Under the pieces are notes generated by a model. The model worked only from the letters and a program-made list of their open reading frames with translations, did not search any database and was not told where the DNA came from. A stretch of 64,000 nucleotides of DNA from Cliona cf. orientalis (lineage: Eukaryota; Porifera; Demospongiae; Clionaida; Clionaidae): positions 124,001-188,000 of the forward strand of contig OZ005698.1 of the NCBI GenBank assembly GCA_963930775.1, written 5' to 3'. Positions 4,121 through 53,640 of this stretch are shown here, piece after piece. The translations under genes were made by a program, and so were the position numbers. The stretch's first letter is position 1, and each line of letters starts with the position of its first letter.

Positions 4121-6533
4121 ATGGTAACTTCGAATTCAGTCCAAATAGTTCTCGCCGCTATGATTTCTAGCGTGATTTTCAATTCTCAACTGATCAGCAG
4201 TATGTCTACTGGAGATCCAATACTGATAGGTAAGTTATATTATAGCAATAGGCCTATACCAGCGCCCCGTAATTATTGGCTATTAATACACAAATTCTTA
4301 TGCTACAATGTCATATTAAATTATTATATTTTGTAGTTGTGATGCTTATAGCTAGCTACAGAATGCCAGTTCATCATTGTCGCAATCACTTTGGGCTCAT
4401 TGGCAGCCACTCAGTGACTATCTTGACGTGACCTCAACTCACAGAATTCCATAAATTTTCTACATCCCATTACTAGATCACGTATACTACCTTTTAATAT
4501 TATCAAGAATAGCAAATAACTGAGTACTCATGCGTCCTTTTACAGTGATTGACTCCCACGTACACCATTATATTAATATAGACTGTCGTGATTTCATGCA
4601 CCATAGTAAAATATACAATTATGTCATAACTTTCAATGAGCATGTTAATAATAATCACTATATGGTTTATCTTTCCTTTAGTGCCTGGAATAACTGGTTC
4701 TCGACTTAGTGTGCGGCGATCAGGGTTCACTTTGTGCAACACGTTCGGCACAAGTGTTGGGCTCTGGGTCAGTGAAGTCCGTATCCTTAAATTTGGATGC
4801 TTTTCACCTGAATTGACGTAAGATATCCCTCTCAATTAATTAGGCTCCATATTAATAGCTATATAATTATTATACAAAACATATTATTATGATATAAATA
4901 GGTTGAGCTATGACAGAAACACTGGTCAGTACTCCAGCACATCTGACAGCATCACTGTCAGTGTCCCCGGCTTTGGTGATACTTACTCGGTGGAGAGGCT
5001 GAGTGGAGGTTTGATAACCTTCCCTTATTTCGATGGATTTGTGGACTACTTCGTTAAGAGAGGATATGAGAGGGGCAGGAGTATTCGAGCTGCACCTTAC
5101 GACTGGAGATTGGGACCAGGTGGGATAGTTACCACAATACGTATCACTAGACCAAAACTGATTTCCTTCAGTAGTGTTTACCATTTCCTACACATAGCTA
5201 TTTATTGGAGGATAGGGCAGAATTTTTGCTAACTTAAATGAAATATGCAGAAAAATTGCTCTATCCTACACATTTCCTATACCTGCACGAAATCCATATT
5301 TTCGTCTAGTGTATTATATTAACTTTACTCCACAGTTTAGGAATACTTTATATTCGATTCCTCTCACATTTCAAATGCCATGGTTTAATGATTAAGTACG
5401 ATTCCGAATAATTTTGTATCCCCCCCCTCCCCCCACCGTTTATGGCTTGCTTCCTTTTCTGATCATAAAAATTAATGCATGGTATCTAAATTACGATAAC
5501 ATCCCGTCTAATAGGAGTTCAGAATCTCCCCTGCTAAAGTATAACCTTTGATGACCCAGTACAAGTGCCCAACTTTTAAAGGAAGAAGCAAAATAAATTG
5601 CTAGCCTCGATGGACTCTATTTATACTCACTTACTAGTTGAGCTGATTTATGTAGGAAATTACTTGGCATCAATATTTATCCACACAGAGGAGCTCCAAA
5701 GGAGGGGTTACTATGACGATGTGAAGGGACTGATTGAGACGATGTATCGTGAGAATGGCAACCGTAGGGTGACCATAGCTGCTCACAGTATGGGGGCTCC
5801 CATAATGCTACACTTTTTGACCCAAAGTGGAGTTGTGACACAGGAGTGGAAGGATCAGTTCATTGGAAACTTCATCCCAATAGCTGGGGCGTGGTCTGGC
5901 GGGAACTCAGCTTTACAATTTGAGATTTCTGGTCTGACTGCAGTCAATAGGGGACATGGTGATATGTTCAATTTCTTCTTTCGCCTTCAAGACTCAATCA
6001 CTGATCCTTTCACGCCAATACTGCGCTCATTTCAGAGCATACACTTTATCCTTCCCCGACCCTCTGTCTGGGGTGACACTGTCCTTGTCACCACTCCTGC
6101 TCGGAGCTACACTGCCAGCGACTACCAGCAACTCTTCTCTGATATAGGACTGACTGATGGATTTGCCATGTACCAAGGAATAGAGAACATTAATAGGGAC
6201 TTCCCCTCTCCAAATGTGCCTACTCACTGCTTCTATGGAGGGGGTATTGATACACCTCGCAGTTTTCACTACACTAGGTCATTTCCTGAGGGAGCTGACA
6301 AGGACCCTCAGGTCACGATGGGAGATGGAGACGGAGCAGTTAATCTTTTAAGTTCCGAGGTCTGCCTTCGTTGGGCTAACAGCAATGGAGGTCGCCCCTT
6401 CAGGAGTATGACATTTGATGGAGCTGAGCACATGGCAATAGTCAATGATGAGGATGTGTTGAGGGAGATTGGTAAGATCGTGGGAGCTTCAGCCAACCCT
6501 ACTGAATGGAAGTCCTTCTCCTTCTTTGGATAG
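4121..6533 (+). CDS. PLA2G15: Lysosomal phospholipase A2 group XV-like, complete
   Basis: A four-exon gene: 4121-4229, 4682-4817, 4902-5119 and 5689-6533, all junctions GT-AG and in phase, giving 435 residues (human PLA2G15 is 412). I chose ATG 4121 because it opens a hydrophobic signal-peptide-like stretch (VQIVLAAMISSVIF). Family landmarks follow in order: the oxyanion-side VPGITGSRL, the VPGFGDTYSVERL block, APYDWR, the nucleophile elbow AAHSMGAP (Ser codon 5787-5789), the Asp motif MGDGDGAVN, and the His in DGAEHMAI. This is the full Ser-Asp-His triad of an LCAT/PLA2G15 hydrolase, expected in the lysosome or secreted. The residue after SMG is Ala, where human PLA2G15 has Asn. It is a near paralogue of the partial gene at 1-472 and the probable source of the fragment at 10240-10720. 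Whether it acts as phospholipase or acyltransferase cannot be told from sequence. Confidence 0.9.
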
Positions 6534-6689: not shown

Positions 6690-6975
6690 ATATTTTGTGG
6701 AAAAGCGTCTTACCATCATTTTGTGGGATACTGTCCTGTATAGAGTATCATCATTAATAATATTTGTAGGATACTATCCTGCATAGGACGGTGTCCGACA
6801 AAATGATAATTTTATGCAGGACGGCATCCCACAAAAAATTTAAATTTGTGCAGGACGGTATCCGACAAAAATTTAATGATAATTTTATGCAGGACAGCAT
6901 CCAACAATGTGGGATACTATCCTGCATAGAGCTCGAGTATCATCATCATTAATATTATTATTATAATTATTCAAG
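6690..6975. repeat. Foldback repeat array, CAGGACAGTATCCAACA family
   Basis: A roughly 20-bp word of the type 'gcaggacagtatccaacaaa' occurs here several times in both orientations, separated by AT-rich spacers such as 'aattttat'. The same word forms arrays at 10721-11020 and is found at 18985-19045, 22385-22520, 28675-28735 and 54430-54530. The stretch from about 6834 to 6975 is also nearly the same as 10906-11020. It looks like a small foldback transposon that nests in itself. Confidence 0.7.
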
Positions 6976-7090
6976 AAGACTGACCGCATCCTAAGTGGAA
7001 AAAGTGTGTTCATTTAGCTAGCTAGAAAAACATCTGCATTAGGAGGAACAAACTGAATTTAACAAGATTAGATGTTATGATTATTATATT

Positions 7091-7800: not shown

Positions 7801-8139
7801 TAGTACAGTTGTGGCTTTTGTGTTTTGACAAGGACATTTTCGCTTATAACTCGACAATGAAAGTGAAATTGAAAATTCTGGAACGTGTAAATTTTTGTTT
7901 TTTTATGCTCTATCTGCTGATCTTTGAATTATCTTCGTAGCATGTTCTGGGGCTGAGTTTACTTATATTATATTATATTATTACATTACATTAGATTGAT
8001 TTTATTTTTTTTCCCACTTAGGATGTAAATTGCGAATATTATGCCTCACACAGCTACCAGTCACCGCCGCCCATATTGTCAAAGGCTTCTGTGCGAGCCA
8101 GCACGGAGCCGAAGAAATGCGAACGACCCCTTACCGCAT

Positions 8140-8245
8140 TAGCGTTATTATAGTGCATGCTAATTTTCGTAGCCGCCAAGGCCCATCGACTACGAAAATA
8201 TTTTTAGCTACAACAAAAATTTCCAGATTTACGGTATTTGTATTT
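8140..8245. mobile_element. Small foldback element, TTTCGTAG...ACGGTA type
   Basis: This AT-rich piece shares 'attttcgtag', 'cgactacgaaaat' and 'aaatttccagatttacggta' with the longer element at 21555-21745. It sits where TBCK exon 2 would be in the duplicate, so its insertion or an associated deletion removed that exon. Confidence 0.6.
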
Positions 8246-8953
8246 TTATCCATCACTTTATTTTTGTAGAGTGATGTCAAACTGCACAACTATGGTGTGT
8301 ACTACATGACCAATCACGGGAAAGAAGTGGACTTCCCCATAGGGTGAGGGAGCGAGGAGTATGTCACATGACACATTCACATGATCATGTTGCTTATCAT
8401 TCAGATCCCCTCGGTACATGGCCCCTGAAATAATTAGCTCTGGTCCAAAATCGCAGATTCCCTCCAGCATCAAGGTTTGTCGTAACCATAGCAATGTACA
8501 TATTATTATTATAATATACATGCAGTTTCATCTTGTGTATAAGCCCCCCCCTCCCCCTTCTTCTCTTACAATATATTAACTCCTTAATTAAGCCTATGGA
8601 TTACCGTATGTGTGTCTATTTGGCTACTGTAGGTGGACGTCTGGTCTCTTGGTGTCATCATGCTGGAGCTCTTCATGGTAAGATCTCTGACATTTGCTGC
8701 TAAATTTAATTTTAAATTTTTAAAGATAATATGAATGATTTCAGCATTATAGGGACAAACATTGACAAAGACTGGTAGTGCAATAAGATTAATAATATTG
8801 TGCTTATTACTATATACCTTATGCAGGAGACGCCTATCTATCCTGACTTGTTCTTACGAAACGCCATTGGTACACTGTTCAAGAGAGTCATACTTCTAAC
8901 ACAGAACTATCAACGTAAGTGTTCTCTACAGTACTCACTAGGCGGTGCAGTTT

Positions 8954-9466
8954 TTAATAGTTCTTGAGTGAAGATGTAGTATTGACACATTCACACTCTC
9001 GTATAAATGGAAAATACACTGGCTTCCATATCTTCACTCCATTGCATATAAGTTTTAACAGTTTTGGCCTGTTTGACTTGTAACGAGTAGGCTGGCAAGA
9101 TGTGCATGATCCAATGTAAAATGGTGGATCTATGGTTGTATCTACTGCTGAAAGGCACACTCCATTGCATGCCCTCACGTTGGTGGATGTTTCCTCACAG
9201 CCTTCGACCTTCACTGACACTGTCACCCTCTCAATTCCACATTTATTTTCACTCCAAGTCATGATTGCCTTGAGATCTTTCTCATTTGTGTTCGCCTCGA
9301 TATCTGTCTCATTTGTGTCTGCCTTGAGATCTGTCTCATTTGTATTTGCCTTGAGATCTGTCTCTTTCGTGTCTGTAGCTATCAGTGAGGAGCCACAGAC
9401 TGCAGCTGCTGCTAGTGACACGAACAGTAGATAGCGCACTAGACTACTGGTGCTGGTGGCCGACAT
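8954..9466 (-). CDS. Secreted C-terminal cystine-knot (CTCK-like) protein, copy A
   Basis: A single-exon gene of 170 residues. The N-terminus has a clear signal peptide ([17 protein letters not shown]), then four imperfect 9-10 residue repeats of the type NTNETDLKA, then a cysteine-rich domain. Cysteines fall as CGIE, EGC, ACNGVC, GSCTSC, LIC, ECEC, and the text VKVEGCEE...CTSCQPTRY...ECECVNTTS resembles the CTCK knot of mucins, von Willebrand factor and related growth-factor-like ligands. It should be a secreted, disulphide-rich, possibly dimeric ligand or matrix protein; the role is unknown. It lies antisense within the TBCK duplicate, in the same position as copy B in the true TBCK intron. 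Copy A has one more N-terminal repeat than copy B. The fold assignment rests on cysteine spacing, not on a search. Confidence 0.75.
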   Translation of the reverse strand: MSATSTSSLVRYLLFVSLAAAAVCGSSLIATDTKETDLKANTNETDLKADTNETDIEANTNEKDLKAIMTWSENKCGIERVTVSVKVEGCEETSTNVRACNGVCLSAVDTTIDPPFYIGSCTSCQPTRYKSNRPKLLKLICNGVKIWKPVYFPFIRECECVNTTSSLKNY

Positions 9467-10239
9467 TATCTTGACGAACTTTCCTCAAGGCTATTATAAT
9501 GTTATAGCTCTTGATCGATGGAGCTATTCGTGATAACTGAGTGCTTTTCCCCTCCGTGCGTGGTGTTTTGATTGGCTGTGGACCGTCTGGAATTCATTAA
9601 AACTTCCCTCGTGGGCCAAGTTCTATTTGGCTAATGAGATTATGACAGGGATGTAGTATTGAGCAATGGCCAGGGAAGGTTAACAAGTGCTCGTTTTTAT
9701 GTGGGTGAGTGGTAGTAGGGGGGAGAGAGGGAGCTCTAGATCTAGCCCTTGCTATTATGTCATGACATGCCTAGACACCCAGCTTGTTGTTCGGCAGCAA
9801 GATCGTTTGATGGTTAGTGGGTTTGTGATTACGTGAGTGTCCCTCTCTTTAATGTGGCCATGGGAGGCCTCTCATTCACTCGGTGCAGCTGTTACTAATT
9901 AATTAAGGCTTGTGTACATGTAGAGCCTGGCCTGAGGGTATGTCCCTGGTTTATTGACTGCCATACTTTAGATGATTCCTAAAGGCTGTGTACATACATG
10001 TTACAGTTGGACACAGATCTACTACTGCGATTATGGTAATCAAATTTTGATACTTTGAAAGTCTTATTAATATGGAGTTCCATAATGTTACATAGTTGTG
10101 ACAAATGAGGGTGTGTTGGGTTCTTGGAATGAACTAAAAATGGCTTCCAAACTAAAATTTTTTTCCCCCACTATCTATCACTTGTATGTTTTTATTGGTA
10201 GCTACTGCAGGCAAGTCCACCAGCCCCCTCACCGCCTTG

Positions 10240-10720
10240 GTCATCGTTGGCGCCCTCAGGAAATGACCTAGTGTAGTGAAAACTGCGAGGTGTATCAATA
10301 CCCACTCCATAGAAGCAGTGAGTGGGCACATTTGGAGAGGGGAAGCCCCTATTAATGTTCTCTATTCCTTGGTACATGGCAAATCCATCAGTCAGTCCTA
10401 TATCAGAGAAGAGTTGCTGGTAGTCGCTGGCAGTGTAGCTCCGAGCAGGAGTGGTGACAAGGACAGTGTCTCCCCAGACAGAAGGTCGGGGAAGGATAAA
10501 GTGTATGCTCTGAAATGAGTGCAGTATTGGTGTGAAAGGATCAGTGATTGAGTCTTGAAGGCGAAAGAAGAAATTGAACATACCACCAGGTCCCCTGTTG
10601 ACTGCAGTCAGACCAGAAGTCTCAAATTGTAAAGCTGAGTTCCCGCCAGACCACGCCTCTGCTATTGGGATGAAGTTTCTAATGAACTGATCCTTCCACT
10701 CCTGTGTCACAACTCCACTT
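10240..10720 (-). pseudogene. PLA2G15: Inverted PLA2G15-like exon fragment
   Basis: This matches 5825-6305 of the complete PLA2G15-like gene in inverse orientation, nearly base for base. It covers SGVVTQEWKD to HYTRSFPEGA, so it lacks the catalytic Ser, Asp and His and has no splice context. One edge abuts the truncated TBCK exon 7 copy at 10239/10240; the other abuts a CAGGACAG foldback repeat. It is a captured gene fragment, not a gene. Confidence 0.9.
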
Positions 10721-11100
10721 TATGCAGGACAGCGTCCAACAAAAATTTAACGATTCTCTGCATAATAGATTTGGATACTGTCCAGCAGTGAATATTTTGT
10801 TGGAATATTCACTGCAGGACAGTATCCAACAAAAGTCAATACTATTCAATGGTTATGGATGGTGGTGCAAACATGTTGTGGATGACTATTGAGTAGCTAC
10901 CAACAAAAAATTTAAATTTGTGCAGGACAGCGTCTGACAAAATGATAATTTTATGCAGGACAGCATCCAACAATGTGGGATACTATCCTGCATAGAGTAT
11001 CATCATTAATATTATTAATTATGAAAAACTTGACCACATCCCCAGTAGCTGCGTACATTGTTCTAATGGTGTATGTGGTAAAAGGTCGTCAATATTATAT
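10721..11100. repeat. Foldback repeat array and short dispersed repeat before TBCK
   Basis: Several CAGGACAGTATCCAACA-type words in both orientations occupy 10721-11010. They are followed at 11022-11090 by a short dispersed repeat ('aaaacttgaccacatcccc' through 'ggtaaaaggtcgtc') that recurs at 25228-25275 and, inverted, at 20999-21058 and 37595-37672. The final part resembles the array after the PLA2G15-like gene at 6834-6975. Confidence 0.7.
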
Positions 11101-11167
11101 ATTGCGAATATGCGGTGTGCGCATGCGCCTCACACAGCTACCAGCCACGCCCACATTGTCAAAGAAG

Positions 11168-14100
11168 ATGGCTACTCCGCTGGGATCTGCTCAGTTTGGC
11201 GTGACAACCTTCTGTGCGAGCCAGCACGGGGCCGAAGAATGCGACTCCCGCGGTCTTCCCCTCACCCTCAACTCCGTCAACATCACAGGTCGATTCAAGA
11301 AGCTGCTCTCTCTCTCCCACCCCGGCCTAGCGACATACCTCGACATCAAGAGCTCAAGGAATGGTAAAACATTGCGACACCGAAGATCAATAATGGTGTC
11401 TAGCCGGGAATTTTAGTGTGAATTTCTCTCTCTCTCCTCCCTCCCATGCATGTACAGAGCGTATGATCCTTGTATCTGAGTGGTACGATGACAATCTGGA
11501 GAACCACATCAGATCGGGGGATTTTGCTAAACCACACCCCCTGTCCAAGCTGGCCAATCAGATCCTCGAAGGTCTTGTCTACCTCGCTGATCACAACATG
11601 ACTCACCGAGCCCTCTCCCCTGACAGCATACTCCTCACACAACAGGTCTGTATGCCAGAATAAGATGAGCTTATATTAGCTTACAGGCTTCTAGACCCTA
11701 AAGCGTGTTTAATATAATATTATCAAGGGGTCTATAAGCCCTTGATATTATGATATACCGTATAGCCAGAAAATTTGGCAGGGAATTAAATGTGGTGGTT
11801 TGGCGGTCTATATTTATATTACAACCGCCAAATTAAAATCCGCCAAAATTTCCTACTTGTACATGTATATACGTATGGCGATCCCATACCGAACTGCCAA
11901 ATTTAAATCCGCCAATATTCTTGCAATCGATTTTGGGCTCAACTGCCAAACATTTAATTCCTGCCAATATTTCCAGCTATACAGTATTTTTATGTTATTA
12001 AATAATTATTCCTTTGATGTGGATATTTTTATCCATCACTTTATTTTTGTAGAGCGATGTTAAACTGCACAACTATGGTGTGTACTACATGACCAATCAC
12101 GGGAAAGAAGTGGACTTCCCCATAGGGTGAGTGAGCGAGGAGTATGTCACATGACACAGTCACATGATCATGTTGCTTATCATTCAGATCCCCTCGGTAC
12201 ATGGCCCCTGAAATAATTAGCTCTGGTCCAAAATCGCAGATTCCCTCCAGCATCAAGGTTTGTCGTAACCATAGCAATGTACAGATTATTATTATTATAG
12301 GTAGTTTCATCTTGTGTATAAGCCACACCCCCTTTCTTCTCTGACAATGCATTAGCTCCTTAATTAAGTCTATGGGGAAAAAAGCTTTCTCCTCATGGCT
12401 ATCGTACGTTTGTCTATTTGGCTACTGTAGGTGGACGTCTGGTCTCTTGGTGTCATCATGCTGGAGCTCTTCATGGTAAGATCTCTGACTTTTGCCGCTA
12501 AATTTAATATTTTAAAGATAATATGAATGATTTCAGCATTATAGGGACAAACATTGACAAAGACTGGCAGTACAATAAGATTAATATTATTGTGCTCATT
12601 AATAGCTAACTATCTTATGCAGGAGACGCCTATCTATCCTGACTTGTTCTTACGAAATGCCATTGGTACACTGTTCAAGAGAGTCATACTTCTAACACAG
12701 AACTATCAACGTAAGTGTTCTCTACAGTACTAGGCGGTGCAGTTCTTAAGAGATTGAAGATGTAGTGTTGACACACCCACACTCTAGTATTTTTGGAAGG
12801 TATACTCGCCGCAGAGTCTTCTTTCCATTGCACATAAATTTTAACCTTTTCTTTCCTGAGTGAATATAACGAGTAGGCTGGCAAGATGTGCATGATCCAA
12901 TGTTAAACGGTGCAGAGAGGGTTGTAGCTATTTCTGAACGGCACAGTCCATTGCATGCCTTCACGACGGCGACCGTTTCCTCACAGCCCTCGACCTTCAC
13001 TGGCACCGTCACCCTCTCAATTCCACAAAATTCATAACTCTTTATCTCAAGATCTGTCTCATTTGTATTTGCCTTAAGATCTGTCTCATTTGTATTTGCC
13101 TCGAGATCTGTCTCTTTCGTGTCTGTAGCTATCAGTGAGGAGCCACAGACTAAAGCTGCTGCTAGTGACACGAACAGTAGATAGCGCACAAGACGGCCGG
13201 TGCTGGTGTTGCTGGCCGACATCATCTTGACGTACTTTCCTCAAGGCTATTATATTATAGCTCTTGATCGATCGATGGTTCTGTTCGTGACAACTGAGTG
13301 CTTTTACCCTCCGTGCGTGGTGTTTTGATTGGCTGTGGACCGTCTGGAATTCACTAAAACTTCCCTCGTGGGCCAAGTTCTAGTAGGCTAATGAGATTAT
13401 GAGAGGGGCTGTAGTATTGAGCAATGCCCAGGGAAGGTTAACAAGTGCTCGTTTTTATGTGGGTGAGTGGTAGTAGCCGGGAGGGAGAGAGGGAGCTCTA
13501 GCCCTTGCTATCATGATATGACATGCCTAGACACCCAGCTCGTTGTTCGGCAGCAAGGTCGTTTGATGGTTAGTGGTTTTGTGATTTCGTGAGCGTCCCT
13601 CTCTTTAATGTGGCCATGGGAGGCCTCTCATTCACTCGGTGCAGCTGCTACTAATTAATTAAGGCTTGTGTACATGTAGAGCCTGGCCTGAGGGTGCGTC
13701 CCTGATTTATTGACTGCCACACTTTAGATGATTCTTAATGTCAGTGCACGTACATGTTACAGTCGGAGACAGATCTACTACTGCGATTATGGTACTTAAA
13801 TTTTTATACTTTGAAAGTCTTATTAATATGGAGCCCCATAATGTTATAATAATATTATTTGTGACAAATGAGGGTGTGTTGGGTTCTTGGAATGAATTAA
13901 AAATGGCTTCCAAACTAAAATTCAGTTCACTTGTATGTTTTTGTTGGTACTGCAGGCAAGTCCACCAGCCCCCTCACCGCCTTGCTCGAAACACACAACT
14001 GCTCAGACAAGGTACCTCTATCAAATTAGTGGGGTTTTTATGGGAAGTTCTTGCATGCATGTATATATGTGATTATGATTATTGTATGGCTCCCCCCTCT

Positions 14101-17300: not shown

Positions 17301-18517
17301 ATCGTAAATACAACTTCTGTAGGCTGTTGCCGACCTTTACCTACATAATATTGTGCCAGGTTATGCGCATGAGCAGAAAGCATATGGTGGGTAGTGTTAA
17401 TAGGCGTGGCCAACAAAATGCAGTATTTGCGACGCTCATGGACCTTGCCAAACGATTCGAAGCACAATGAAGCCAGTTTTTCGACGATATCGACGGGTAC
17501 GCTGCAGCGCGCGGGGTATGTGCTCTATAGAGCTCTAGTATTATATATATTATATGAAATCTTCAGTATAAAAATTATCTTTCCACAAAATTTTTTGGAT
17601 TGATGATGATGCCGTAACAACATTAGAAGTCATGTATAGCATTGTGTATGTTAGTGGAAACGCTTGTTACATTTATATATACCTACAGCGACGTGAAGCA
17701 CTTTCATTGGCTACTCTGCGGATGGAGGCGTGTCCTCAGGTCTCCGCCCATGACGTCATCATAATGTGTGGCCTTGAATCACAGGCTCTCGGCTACAACA
17801 ATCTGCAAAAGATCCACGAAAGTGATCCGTTTCGAAAGAAGGGTGGGGTGAGAGGGGCCAAGAAGTCTCGCCTCAAAGCCATAGTGGTGGACATCCGCTC
17901 ATCGGAGGAGTTTCGTCTCGGACATCTCCCAAACTCAAAGAACATTCCAGAGAGTGCGGCATTTCAGGCGGATGGCTCCCTCAGCCCTTCCCTCTCGCTA
18001 GGAGCCGTGCCAAAGGGAAGAGTTGTCGTGGTGGTCGGGGGAAAGAAGGAGAAAGAACCAGTGGTAAGCAGTCCTCAGTCAATCTGTTGAGGTATATAGA
18101 CACAAATTTAATAAAGGATGGAGTACTGGAATTTTTTTTGCAGGGATGAGCTTGAGCTAGGCCTAGGTTGATGTGCCTCCTGTTAGCTAACCCCAAATAT
18201 TAAGTGTGGGGAATTGTCTAAAAAGCCCAAAAATGGGTTAAAACCATACTCTACCAAATTACTGAAATTTCAGAAATGTTAATTTTCTGCAGCTCATGAA
18301 ACACAGGGGGCTAATTCAACATTAATTTTGTGGGTTAGCCCATGCACTATAGTTATAGTGAGTCTGAGTATCTGGATAAGAAGATGATGTATGTTTCTAT
18401 GTGCAGTTTGCTCGGCAGCTAGTGAGGATGAACTACTCCAAGGTTTGTGTGCTGAGCGGAGGCGCTGGTGTCCTCAGAACTCATGGCCTGCTAACGTCTC
18501 TTCATGATGACCCTTGA
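11168..18517 (+). CDS. TBCK: TBC domain-containing protein kinase-like (TBCK)
   Basis: I spliced 21 GT-AG exons in one frame: 11168-11363, 11458-11645, 12053-12126, 12188-12257, 12431-12475, 12623-12710, 13956-14011, 14126-14187, 14324-14629, 14843-14942, 15023-15075, 15129-15378, 15671-15860, 15919-15969, 16057-16140, 16234-16319, 16387-16423, 16495-16656, 16970-17091, 17689-18063, 18407-18517. This gives 901 residues (human TBCK 893). Domains: a pseudokinase ([11 protein letters not shown] in place of HRD, no DFG, then MAPEIIS and [12 protein letters not shown]); a TBC Rab-GAP domain with both catalytic fingers, [11 protein letters not shown] (IxxDxxR) and VYWQG (YxQ); and a C-terminal rhodanese-like domain ([20 protein letters not shown]). 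TBCK is linked to Rab regulation, endosome/lysosome traffic and mTOR signalling. ATG 11168 aligns with the family start. Intron 6 hosts an antisense cystine-knot gene; intron 2 holds a foldback element; introns 18 and 19 hold two more elements. Confidence 0.96.
11756..11986 (+). mobile_element. Foldback element, family 1 (TACCGTATAGCC...GGCTATACGGTA)
   Basis: Family 1 elements are about 190-230 bp, begin near 'taccgtatagccggaaa' and end with the inverse 'tttccggctatacggta'. Inside they have several words 'ccgccaaatttaa' and 'tttggcggt' in both orientations. The flanking TA fits a TA target duplication of Tc1/mariner-type MITEs. This copy lies in TBCK intron 2; its 3' end reads 'acagta'. Confidence 0.85.
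12746..13225 (-). CDS. Secreted C-terminal cystine-knot (CTCK-like) protein, copy B, nested in TBCK
   Basis: A single-exon gene of 159 residues, wholly inside TBCK intron 6 (12711-13955) on the opposite strand. Its signal peptide ([17 protein letters not shown]) is almost the same as in copy A. Three NTNETDL-type repeats follow, then the nine-cysteine domain (CGIE, EGC, ACNGLC, GSCTSC, FMC, ECGC). The start may be 13225 or the next ATG at 13222, which is the one aligned with copy A. In the domain only about two thirds of residues match copy A, though all nine cysteines and the [11 protein letters not shown] block are unchanged. This is likely the parental locus because the surrounding TBCK is intact. 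Function is unknown; a secreted ligand or surface factor is likely. Confidence 0.75.
   Translation of the reverse strand: MMSASNTSTGRLVRYLLFVSLAAALVCGSSLIATDTKETDLEANTNETDLKANTNETDLEIKSYEFCGIERVTVPVKVEGCEETVAVVKACNGLCRSEIATTLSAPFNIGSCTSCQPTRYIHSGKKRLKFMCNGKKTLRRVYLPKILECGCVNTTSSIS
16672..16875. mobile_element. Foldback element, family 3 (CCTTAGGGCTAC...TGTCCTTA)
   Basis: About 200 bp in TBCK intron 18, starting 'accttagggctactattatt' and ending 'gcaaacaaaaatgtcctta'. A second copy at 45006-45214 shares the whole length, including 'gtgggtactcattttagcga' and 'ggcaaatcactaat'. The ends are imperfect inverted repeats. Confidence 0.8.
17181..17518. mobile_element. Inverted-repeat element, family 4 (TACCCCGCGCGC ends), copy 1
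   Basis: In TBCK intron 19. The ends are 'taccccgcgcgc' and 'gcgcgcggggta'. The left part holds a (GTCTGTC)n tandem and 'cacaaaaatcgcca'; the right part holds 'gacctttacctacat' through 'ttttcgacgatatcgacgg'. A second copy is at 54112-54422. It has no coding capacity, so it is a non-autonomous element. Confidence 0.8.
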
Positions 18518-19580: not shown

Positions 19581-19659
19581 AGAGCTCATGCATCATGTGC
19601 ATGTTCAATAATAATAATTATTATTAAAAAGGGTGTGGCTATTAAATTTGGACGTCGAC

Positions 19660-20874
19660 ATGCTCTCTTTTGTGCTTCTAGCAGTATTGTTGCTGTCGCT
19701 GCTTCTACTTTTATTTACACGGTCCCAGAAATATGCTGTTCTCTTCATCGATGCCCCCGACCCTGACAACCCAGCCGCGGCCATGGCTCTCTGGAGCTAT
19801 GTCTTGAAGAAGAAGGGCGGGGACCATCTCCACATAGTGCTCACTGGTAGACCTGTCGATCTGAGAACGAGGAAGCGTTTCTCTGAGCACTTACCCACAA
19901 GGGAGCAGATTTCACGCCAAAGCTGGGAAACAGCTGTGCCAGAGCACGCCAGGAGAGTGCTGGAAGACTCTGCCTGCAGAATAGCCAGATATTTGATGAA
20001 ATGCGGTGTCCCTCTTCGCTCCTTCACCCTCTACGATGGAGGTGTGGCTAGAGAAGCTCCCCTCTCTGATGTAGCTCACGATTGGGACTTCATTTTCGAC
20101 CGAAGAGATCTAGTGACGCAGAGAAGAGAAGATGAGGGAGAAATTTTAGAGCCTCGGGAGTATGACCAACTAGTGGGCAAGTATTCTTCTCTGAGTGAGG
20201 TAGAGAGAGAACAAACTTTTCTATCATTTTTAAGGCACTACGATCTGACACCACTGGACGATCTACGTTCGCATCTCAGCAAGCCTTGGAATAGAGGAAT
20301 AGCTGTATTCCTAGGAGGCCCGGCAACTGCGTTGGTGAAGCTATTTAAAGGTCGAGCTCACTTGTCCAGTAAGGTCTCCTCCTTCTACGCCATGTTTGGA
20401 AGCCTTCATCCAGGCAAGAGGACCCTATTGGCCAATCAGTTCAATGCAGCGTGCGATCTCCCGGCTGCCAAAGAGGTGTTCATTGATAACCTATTCCCTG
20501 GAGCAAAGTCGCACCTGATTACGACAGAGACAGCGAAACTATCAACATTTGTTCTCTCGGCGCAGGAGATGGCTGAGGTGGGGGTGAACGGCCATGTTGT
20601 GAGGTTGCAGAGGTTATGGGAATGGACTCATGGGAATCGGCCCCAGCCAATGTTTGACGTCCTATCAGTGATGGCAGCTCTACCAATGCACAAAGACTGC
20701 TTCACTTGGAGAGAGAAGAGAGTCTGCATGGTGAAATCAGATGGTGATAAGATTTTTACTTTTGTTGATGCGGCTGATTCCACTGAGAGCAGTGATGCTG
20801 TACTAGTGACTGATGAATGTGTCAAGTATGACAAAGAAACTTTTAAACAGTTCTTTGCACACATTTGGAGATAA
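19660..20874 (+). CDS. Membrane-anchored nucleoside-hydrolase-like protein
   Basis: An intronless frame of 404 residues from ATG 19660 to TAA 20872. I prefer this ATG because it opens a strong hydrophobic segment (MLSFVLLAVLLLSLLLLLF), a signal anchor or signal peptide. The rest resembles the inosine/uridine-preferring nucleoside hydrolase fold: an N-terminal acidic motif VLFIDAPDPDNPAAAMAL (family DTDxGxDDAxAL), then IAVFLGGPATALVKLF, and ANQFNAACDLPAAKEVFID (family xEFNxxxDPEAAxxVF). The Asp pattern of the first motif is changed, so Ca2+ binding and hydrolase activity are uncertain. It is a relative rather than a proven enzyme. A poly(A) signal AATAAA lies at 20910. The gene converges on the ryanodine receptor gene, 363 bp from its stop. 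The lack of introns among intron-rich neighbours could mean a retrocopy. Confidence 0.7.
   Translation: MLSFVLLAVLLLSLLLLLFTRSQKYAVLFIDAPDPDNPAAAMALWSYVLKKKGGDHLHIVLTGRPVDLRTRKRFSEHLPTREQISRQSWETAVPEHARRVLEDSACRIARYLMKCGVPLRSFTLYDGGVAREAPLSDVAHDWDFIFDRRDLVTQRREDEGEILEPREYDQLVGKYSSLSEVEREQTFLSFLRHYDLTPLDDLRSHLSKPWNRGIAVFLGGPATALVKLFKGRAHLSSKVSSFYAMFGSLHPGKRTLLANQFNAACDLPAAKEVFIDNLFPGAKSHLITTETAKLSTFVLSAQEMAEVGVNGHVVRLQRLWEWTHGNRPQPMFDVLSVMAALPMHKDCFTWREKRVCMVKSDGDKIFTFVDAADSTESSDAVLVTDECVKYDKETFKQFFAHIWR

Positions 20875-21237: not shown

Positions 21238-53640
<32,403 letters not shown>

Follow-up and report, generated by a model that had tools for sequence, protein, structure and literature searches.

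The sponge Cliona cf. orientalis is the source of the 64,000-nucleotide window analysed here, which lies on chromosome 10 (C10:124001-188000) and carries, on its reverse strand, two intronless open reading frames (ORFs), gene A (8954..9466, 170 amino acids) and gene B (12746..13225, 159 amino acids), both antisense to the gene TBCK. They occupy the same intron of TBCK in the two copies of a tandem segmental duplication. These paralogues each encode a small secreted cystine-knot protein of DAN/norrin type and have in common a layout of signal peptide, repeat stalk and DAN-type cystine knot; both exceed the curated PF03045 cut-off of 22 bits (27.0 bits for A, 31.3 bits for B). A leader (9242..9466 in A; 13028..13225 in B) precedes the knot domain (C76-C160, 8987..9241, in A; C67-C151, 12773..13027, in B), the A copy of which is the most divergent stretch. 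The two signal peptides are similar, while the nine-residue repeats number about four in A and about three in B and the linkers belong to the classes TWSxNKC and SYEFC, respectively; the repeats form an in-frame 27-bp minisatellite (9242-9400, 13028-13150) whose copy number varies among A, B and their relatives. The cystine-knot frame, CxGxC ... C ... CxC plus further cysteines, is present, and a test for a cystine-knot growth factor fold was positive; all nine cysteines are aligned and retained in both copies, as a first-pass annotation of this DNA had stated, and over the 24 rows of the family alignment described below eight are invariant and C76 is found in at least 90%.

The name given to the host gene, TBCK, fits a kinase-like exon (11418-11660) and a rhodanese-domain exon (17572-18087) that follow in order; the segment 15076-15411, presumed to be part of the TBC domain, gave no domain match, and other features of the sequence agree with the name as well. 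Exon numbers are those of the first-pass annotation. Copy B of the duplicated segment (12024..13984, forward strand; blastn against 8241-10239) lies inside a TBCK gene that has its start and further exons. Copy A (8241..10239, forward strand; blastn and MAFFT) is truncated: of TBCK it holds exons 3-6 and the beginning of exon 7. To its left, at 8018..8122 on the same strand, stands a decayed remnant of exon 1 (local alignment score of 125 against 11095-11244, the best of 100 shuffles reaching 51), which lacks the start-codon region and shows copy A to be a broken piece of TBCK; in the self-comparison copy A had no match to exon 2. At 10239 copy A ends against an inverted fragment of a neighbouring LCAT-domain gene (10250..10721, reverse strand; 96.8% to 5824-6295; PF02450, 34.1 bits). 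Other copies of the LCAT-domain gene lie nearby (1-409 resembles 6026-6436 at 87%), and because of these copies and the abutting fragment the region looks like a duplication-prone zone. A short repeated motif (GCAGGACAGCGTCCAACAAA-like) flanks copy A on both sides (6740-6990 and 10700-11020) and is possibly tied to the rearrangement.

The contrast between the knot and its surroundings is real and well delimited. It had been claimed that the cysteine domains of the two genes differ far more than the DNA around them, and the counts behind this claim were reproduced: without gaps, 55 of 240 positions differ between 9001-9240 and 12787-13026, as against 6 of 120 in the non-coding flank (9537-9656), a single synonymous change among 88 positions in TBCK exon 6 (8827..8914 and 12623..12710, forward strand) and none in a 37-nt block in the middle of the knot (9081..9117 and 12867..12903, reverse strand). 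The accompanying figure of about 95% non-coding similarity holds for this flank but not for the whole duplication, in which introns and flank together, counted without gapped columns, differ at 83 of 1133 sites (7.3%), and unevenly so (17/150 in one intron). Knot and C-terminal tail together (8954-9241) have 61 differences in 282 sites (21.6%; Fisher p = 8e-11 against non-coding DNA), the adjoining stalk and linker are intermediate (16/107), and the part encoding the signal peptide differs at 6 of 82. In the TBCK exons, 3 of 312 sites differ (p 2e-6 against non-coding DNA), with 3-11% in the interleaved introns; the 89 in-frame codons of exons 3-6 contain two synonymous and no non-synonymous differences, and the remaining difference (8272, at the margin of exon 3) is synonymous if the same frame is assumed. 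The knot has diverged about three times as far as the non-coding DNA, at amino-acid sites and, by most counts, at synonymous sites.

Non-synonymous and synonymous divergence (dN and dS) were estimated for a single pair, A against B, from a gapped alignment of 91 knot codons. The values of dN/dS were 0.233/0.283 by NG86 (ratio 0.82), 0.247/0.254 by LWL85 (0.98), 0.252/0.241 by YN00 (1.05) and 0.240/0.242 by maximum likelihood (0.99), and an NG86 bootstrap on the ungapped alignment of 92 codons gave a 95% interval of 0.50-1.69. For the signal peptide and repeats (47 codons) dN was 0.040 and dS 0.085; for TBCK exons 3-6 they were 0 and 0.032. Set against these values, there is no net constraint on the protein over the whole knot, and the synonymous sites of the knot seem to predate the flanks, knot dS (0.24-0.28) lying above that of the leader of the same ORF, that of the TBCK exons and the raw non-coding divergence. 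Non-synonymous change in the knot (41.4 of 203.8 sites) exceeds the non-coding level of 83/1133 with p ~1e-7, and the claim that coding change lies above the local neutral level was thus upheld. Synonymous change (16/69) also exceeds it (p 8e-5), as it does after removal of the indel-prone codons 130-138 (12/64, p 0.003), and the strength of this excess varies with the counting method. Along the knot, dS reaches 0.60 in the finger-2 segment (ungapped alignment), and residues 101-120 alone give dN 0.27 and dS 0.13. The diversifying selection proposed from the first inspection therefore stands in part: the coding excess and the better conservation of leader than knot in relatives speak for it, but a ratio above 1 is not established (0.82-1.05) and dS is raised too. 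A dN/dS below 1 with dS high only in the exon, which the first-pass annotation had named as telling against such selection, is largely what we find, because knot dS is raised as well as dN and stands above both flank and leader, though stricter counts are less extreme.

Three protein searches brought together 31 related proteins, mostly on environmental or genomic contigs, of which P0001 is identical to protein A. The tree was built from an alignment of 24 rows: A, B, a paralogue on chromosome 13 and 21 of the 22 proteins then known, P0001 being omitted. In the TBCK-type group, counted over eight rows without P0003, whose knot repeats that of B, 28 of 28 pairs show more similarity in the leader than in the knot, and so did 21 of 21 in an earlier set of seven rows; in the sister group, the chromosome-13-type proteins, the same holds for 53 of 55 pairs (11 rows, leaving out P0011, P0018, P0020-P0022 and P0024-P0031), these pairs being non-independent, as the rows are related and were found by shared words. 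The linker class TWSxNKC is common to A, P0002 and P0004, and that of B to P0003 and P0007; P0002 and P0007, whose knots are the most similar (0.81) in the first eight rows once identical ones are set aside, carry different linkers. As linker classes cross-cut knot similarity in this way, and as a compatibility-order test on eight sequences gave p values of 0.06, 0.003 and 0.007 at three window sizes, the alignment suggests recombination or shuffling among family members.

The best account of these results, to which we would give about an even chance, is that recombination has set older knot classes into younger flanks and that diversifying or balancing selection has acted on them. The knots of A and B would then be sequence classes older than the DNA that surrounds them, and a tandem joining of two divergent haplotypes would have united them; by an alternative route, exon-limited conversion from an unsampled allele would have replaced one knot. 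Such selection, directed at the variable loops, would keep the knots apart while the signal peptide, the repeats and the cysteine frame stay more constant, and the product would be a secreted ligand or effector in recognition or defence. Most of the divergence between A and B probably arose while both copies sat in working TBCK genes, because the exons are without amino-acid change although copy A is broken, and because conversion tracts could hardly pick out exons only; such constraint fits two alleles, or two intact duplicates of which one broke late. In the sequenced specimen the haplotypes seem to differ greatly, given the k-mer completeness that the text of PMC12639293 states for the primary (60.5%), alternate (91.4%) and combined (99.6%) assemblies; a heterozygosity of about 3% follows from the primary value, a crude estimate, with the alternate's 91% misfitting a simple diploid.

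Several results weigh against older knot classes. A count restricted to codons whose amino acid is the same in both copies lowers the synonymous excess (to 8 of 44.5 sites, p = 0.016), and four-fold sites of the knot give 4 of 30; because of this, part of the knot dS is an artefact of codons hit more than once. At synonymous sites the comparison of leader and knot gives p = 0.065, and that of finger 2 with the rest of the knot p = 0.056. The knot tree is poorly resolved, and a grouping of A, B and P0003 is not rejected (p 0.43). P0003, on a contig of 557,831 bp, has the knot of B over 85 residues and a slightly different signal peptide (0.93 for the signal against 1.00 for the knot, the reverse of the family trend), and as a likely allele or close relative of B it indicates no hyper-polymorphism there.

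As the synonymous excess depends on how it is counted, a rival account keeps its place, in which point mutations of the ordinary kind have been positively selected since the tandem duplication and the raised dS is an artefact of codons that carry two or three changes; we think it unlikely, though a serious competitor. Selection of this kind does not by itself raise dS, though multiply hit codons inflate it. The non-synonymous excess, the low dS of residues 101-120, the four-fold sites at a level little above 7% and the family-wide contrast of leader and knot speak for it. However, four methods agree on a high knot dS with a ratio near 1, the finger-2 value is higher still, and the linker classes held in common with other members suggest older lineages.

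Distinctly unlikely is an explanation by conversion and relaxation, in which gene conversion from a diverged donor gave one copy a new knot and constraint was relaxed with no special selection. A ratio close to 1 together with an elevated exon dS, the patchy divergence, including the identical block, and the order test (p 0.003-0.06) fit it; the retention of all nine cysteines and the recurrence of the leader-knot contrast in the family do not. The whole-genome search (216.8 Mb) returned one paralogue beyond A and B, the intronless DAN-type gene on chromosome 13 (C13:1663725-1664126), which has a different leader (MERSLIHGFQRLL...) and scores 29.1 bits for PF03045 in the genome scan, its 85-residue piece alone giving 19.3, below the cut-off. 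Few other ORFs of at least 85 amino acids occur in the 9.9 kb around it. Over the knot its proportion of synonymous differences (pS) is 0.79 and 0.80 against A and B, and because the sole other paralogue found is saturated against both, conversion of the loops from further paralogues in this genome, which had been offered as an alternative to selection, is unlikely.

That the assembly strung together two haplotypes of one locus is very improbable. According to the text of PMC12639293, 81 haplotypic duplications were taken out, and 201 misjoins or missing joins were manually corrected; moreover, constrained exons with 7% intron divergence resemble alleles. However, copy A, a broken piece of TBCK with the inverted LCAT fragment at its border, is not a whole second haplotype, and C10:24001-288000 is without a gap. 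Protein A is also encoded on a 165,798-bp public contig, which cannot be the longer gap-free stretch of chromosome 10; because the window's own contig is gap-free over that stretch, we infer a distinct contig, perhaps of the alternate haplotype. A local mutation hotspot in the knot exon would raise dN and dS jointly, but it is scarcely credible beside conserved cysteines, 37 unchanged nucleotides in mid-knot and a transition:transversion mix (27:34) no different from that of non-coding DNA (45:38, p 0.31).

The pattern of divergence may point to a role for A and B in recognition or defence, the main functional alternative being an ordinary secreted BMP/LGR-type ligand that diverged fast. A bolder version, which we regard as a long shot, is that the TBCK intron of clionaid sponges has long housed a polymorphic locus for a DAN-type cystine-knot ligand with multiple classes; balancing selection would maintain the diversity of its shuffled knot for self/non-self, gamete or microbial recognition, and two of the classes would lie on one chromosome in this individual. 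The genes of sponge self/non-self discrimination and defence are poorly known, and this locus is a compact candidate: its leader is almost constant, its growth-factor-type knot has diverged strongly, and a single amplicon would suffice to type it in many animals. Were the account correct, a BMP-antagonist or hormone fold would be serving as a variable scaffold; were only conversion and relaxation at work, the locus would still be a clean case, TBCK giving neutral and constrained yardsticks within 2 kb.

Elsewhere in the window, a dispersed repeat family of about 200 bp occurs on both strands (11752-11990, 22931-23152, 26658-26839, 30683-30876, 34181-34313, 39125-39342, 40873-41048 and 46779-46994), one copy lying in the TBCK intron upstream of exon 3. 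A long open frame of 418 amino acids with an inosine-uridine nucleoside hydrolase domain (PF01156) occupies 19618-20871 on the forward strand, and 1434-1757 is a degenerate repeat (AGTCCTCAGTGAAGCAA-type) with self-match offsets of about 126 and 55-60 bases.

Among known systems, the DAN-family BMP antagonists (NBL1/DAN, gremlin-1/2; PF03045) have the cystine-knot layout and signal peptide in common with A and B; the profile of the 24 rows matches NBL1 (4yu8, E 2e-7) and gremlin-1 (5aej, E 8e-6), and PF03045 is matched by 23 of the 24 at E up to 0.1. Protein A alone gives weak NBL1 matches (E 0.077 and 0.12), ranked below the CTCK domain of von Willebrand factor (E 0.007). Unlike these antagonists, A and B have a repeat stalk and a conserved leader with a variable knot. 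Norrin, a ligand of Fz4/LGR4, and the VEGF/PDGF-type knots are also among the closest known systems. A and B appear to be a variant of the already known sponge cystine-knot hormone-like proteins (CKHs), which are likewise small cystine-knot peptides of sponges, a likeness that lies in their description in the text of PMC4079206. As described there, CKHs combine GPH/bursicon and BMP antagonist features, some have little beyond a signal peptide before the knot, and they are recognized by a cysteine pattern equal to that of bursicon/NDP, including the 7th and 12th cysteines (PMC4079206). Rapid divergence, nesting in TBCK and the contrast of leader and knot are features of A and B that this description of CKHs does not include. 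The CRP-I peptides of Mytilus, as presented in the text of PMC10138031, also have a conserved signal peptide and propeptide, a hypervariable mature part framed by cysteines and tandem duplication, and the greater conservation of signal peptide than mature domain is seen in our family too, in the non-independent pairs counted above. However, CRP-I belongs to another phylum and another peptide family, and positive selection is reported for it (PMC10138031), whereas A and B give a ratio of 0.82-1.05. A diverged mature part behind a conserved leader and within conserved surroundings is a pattern often found in proteins of recognition or defence.

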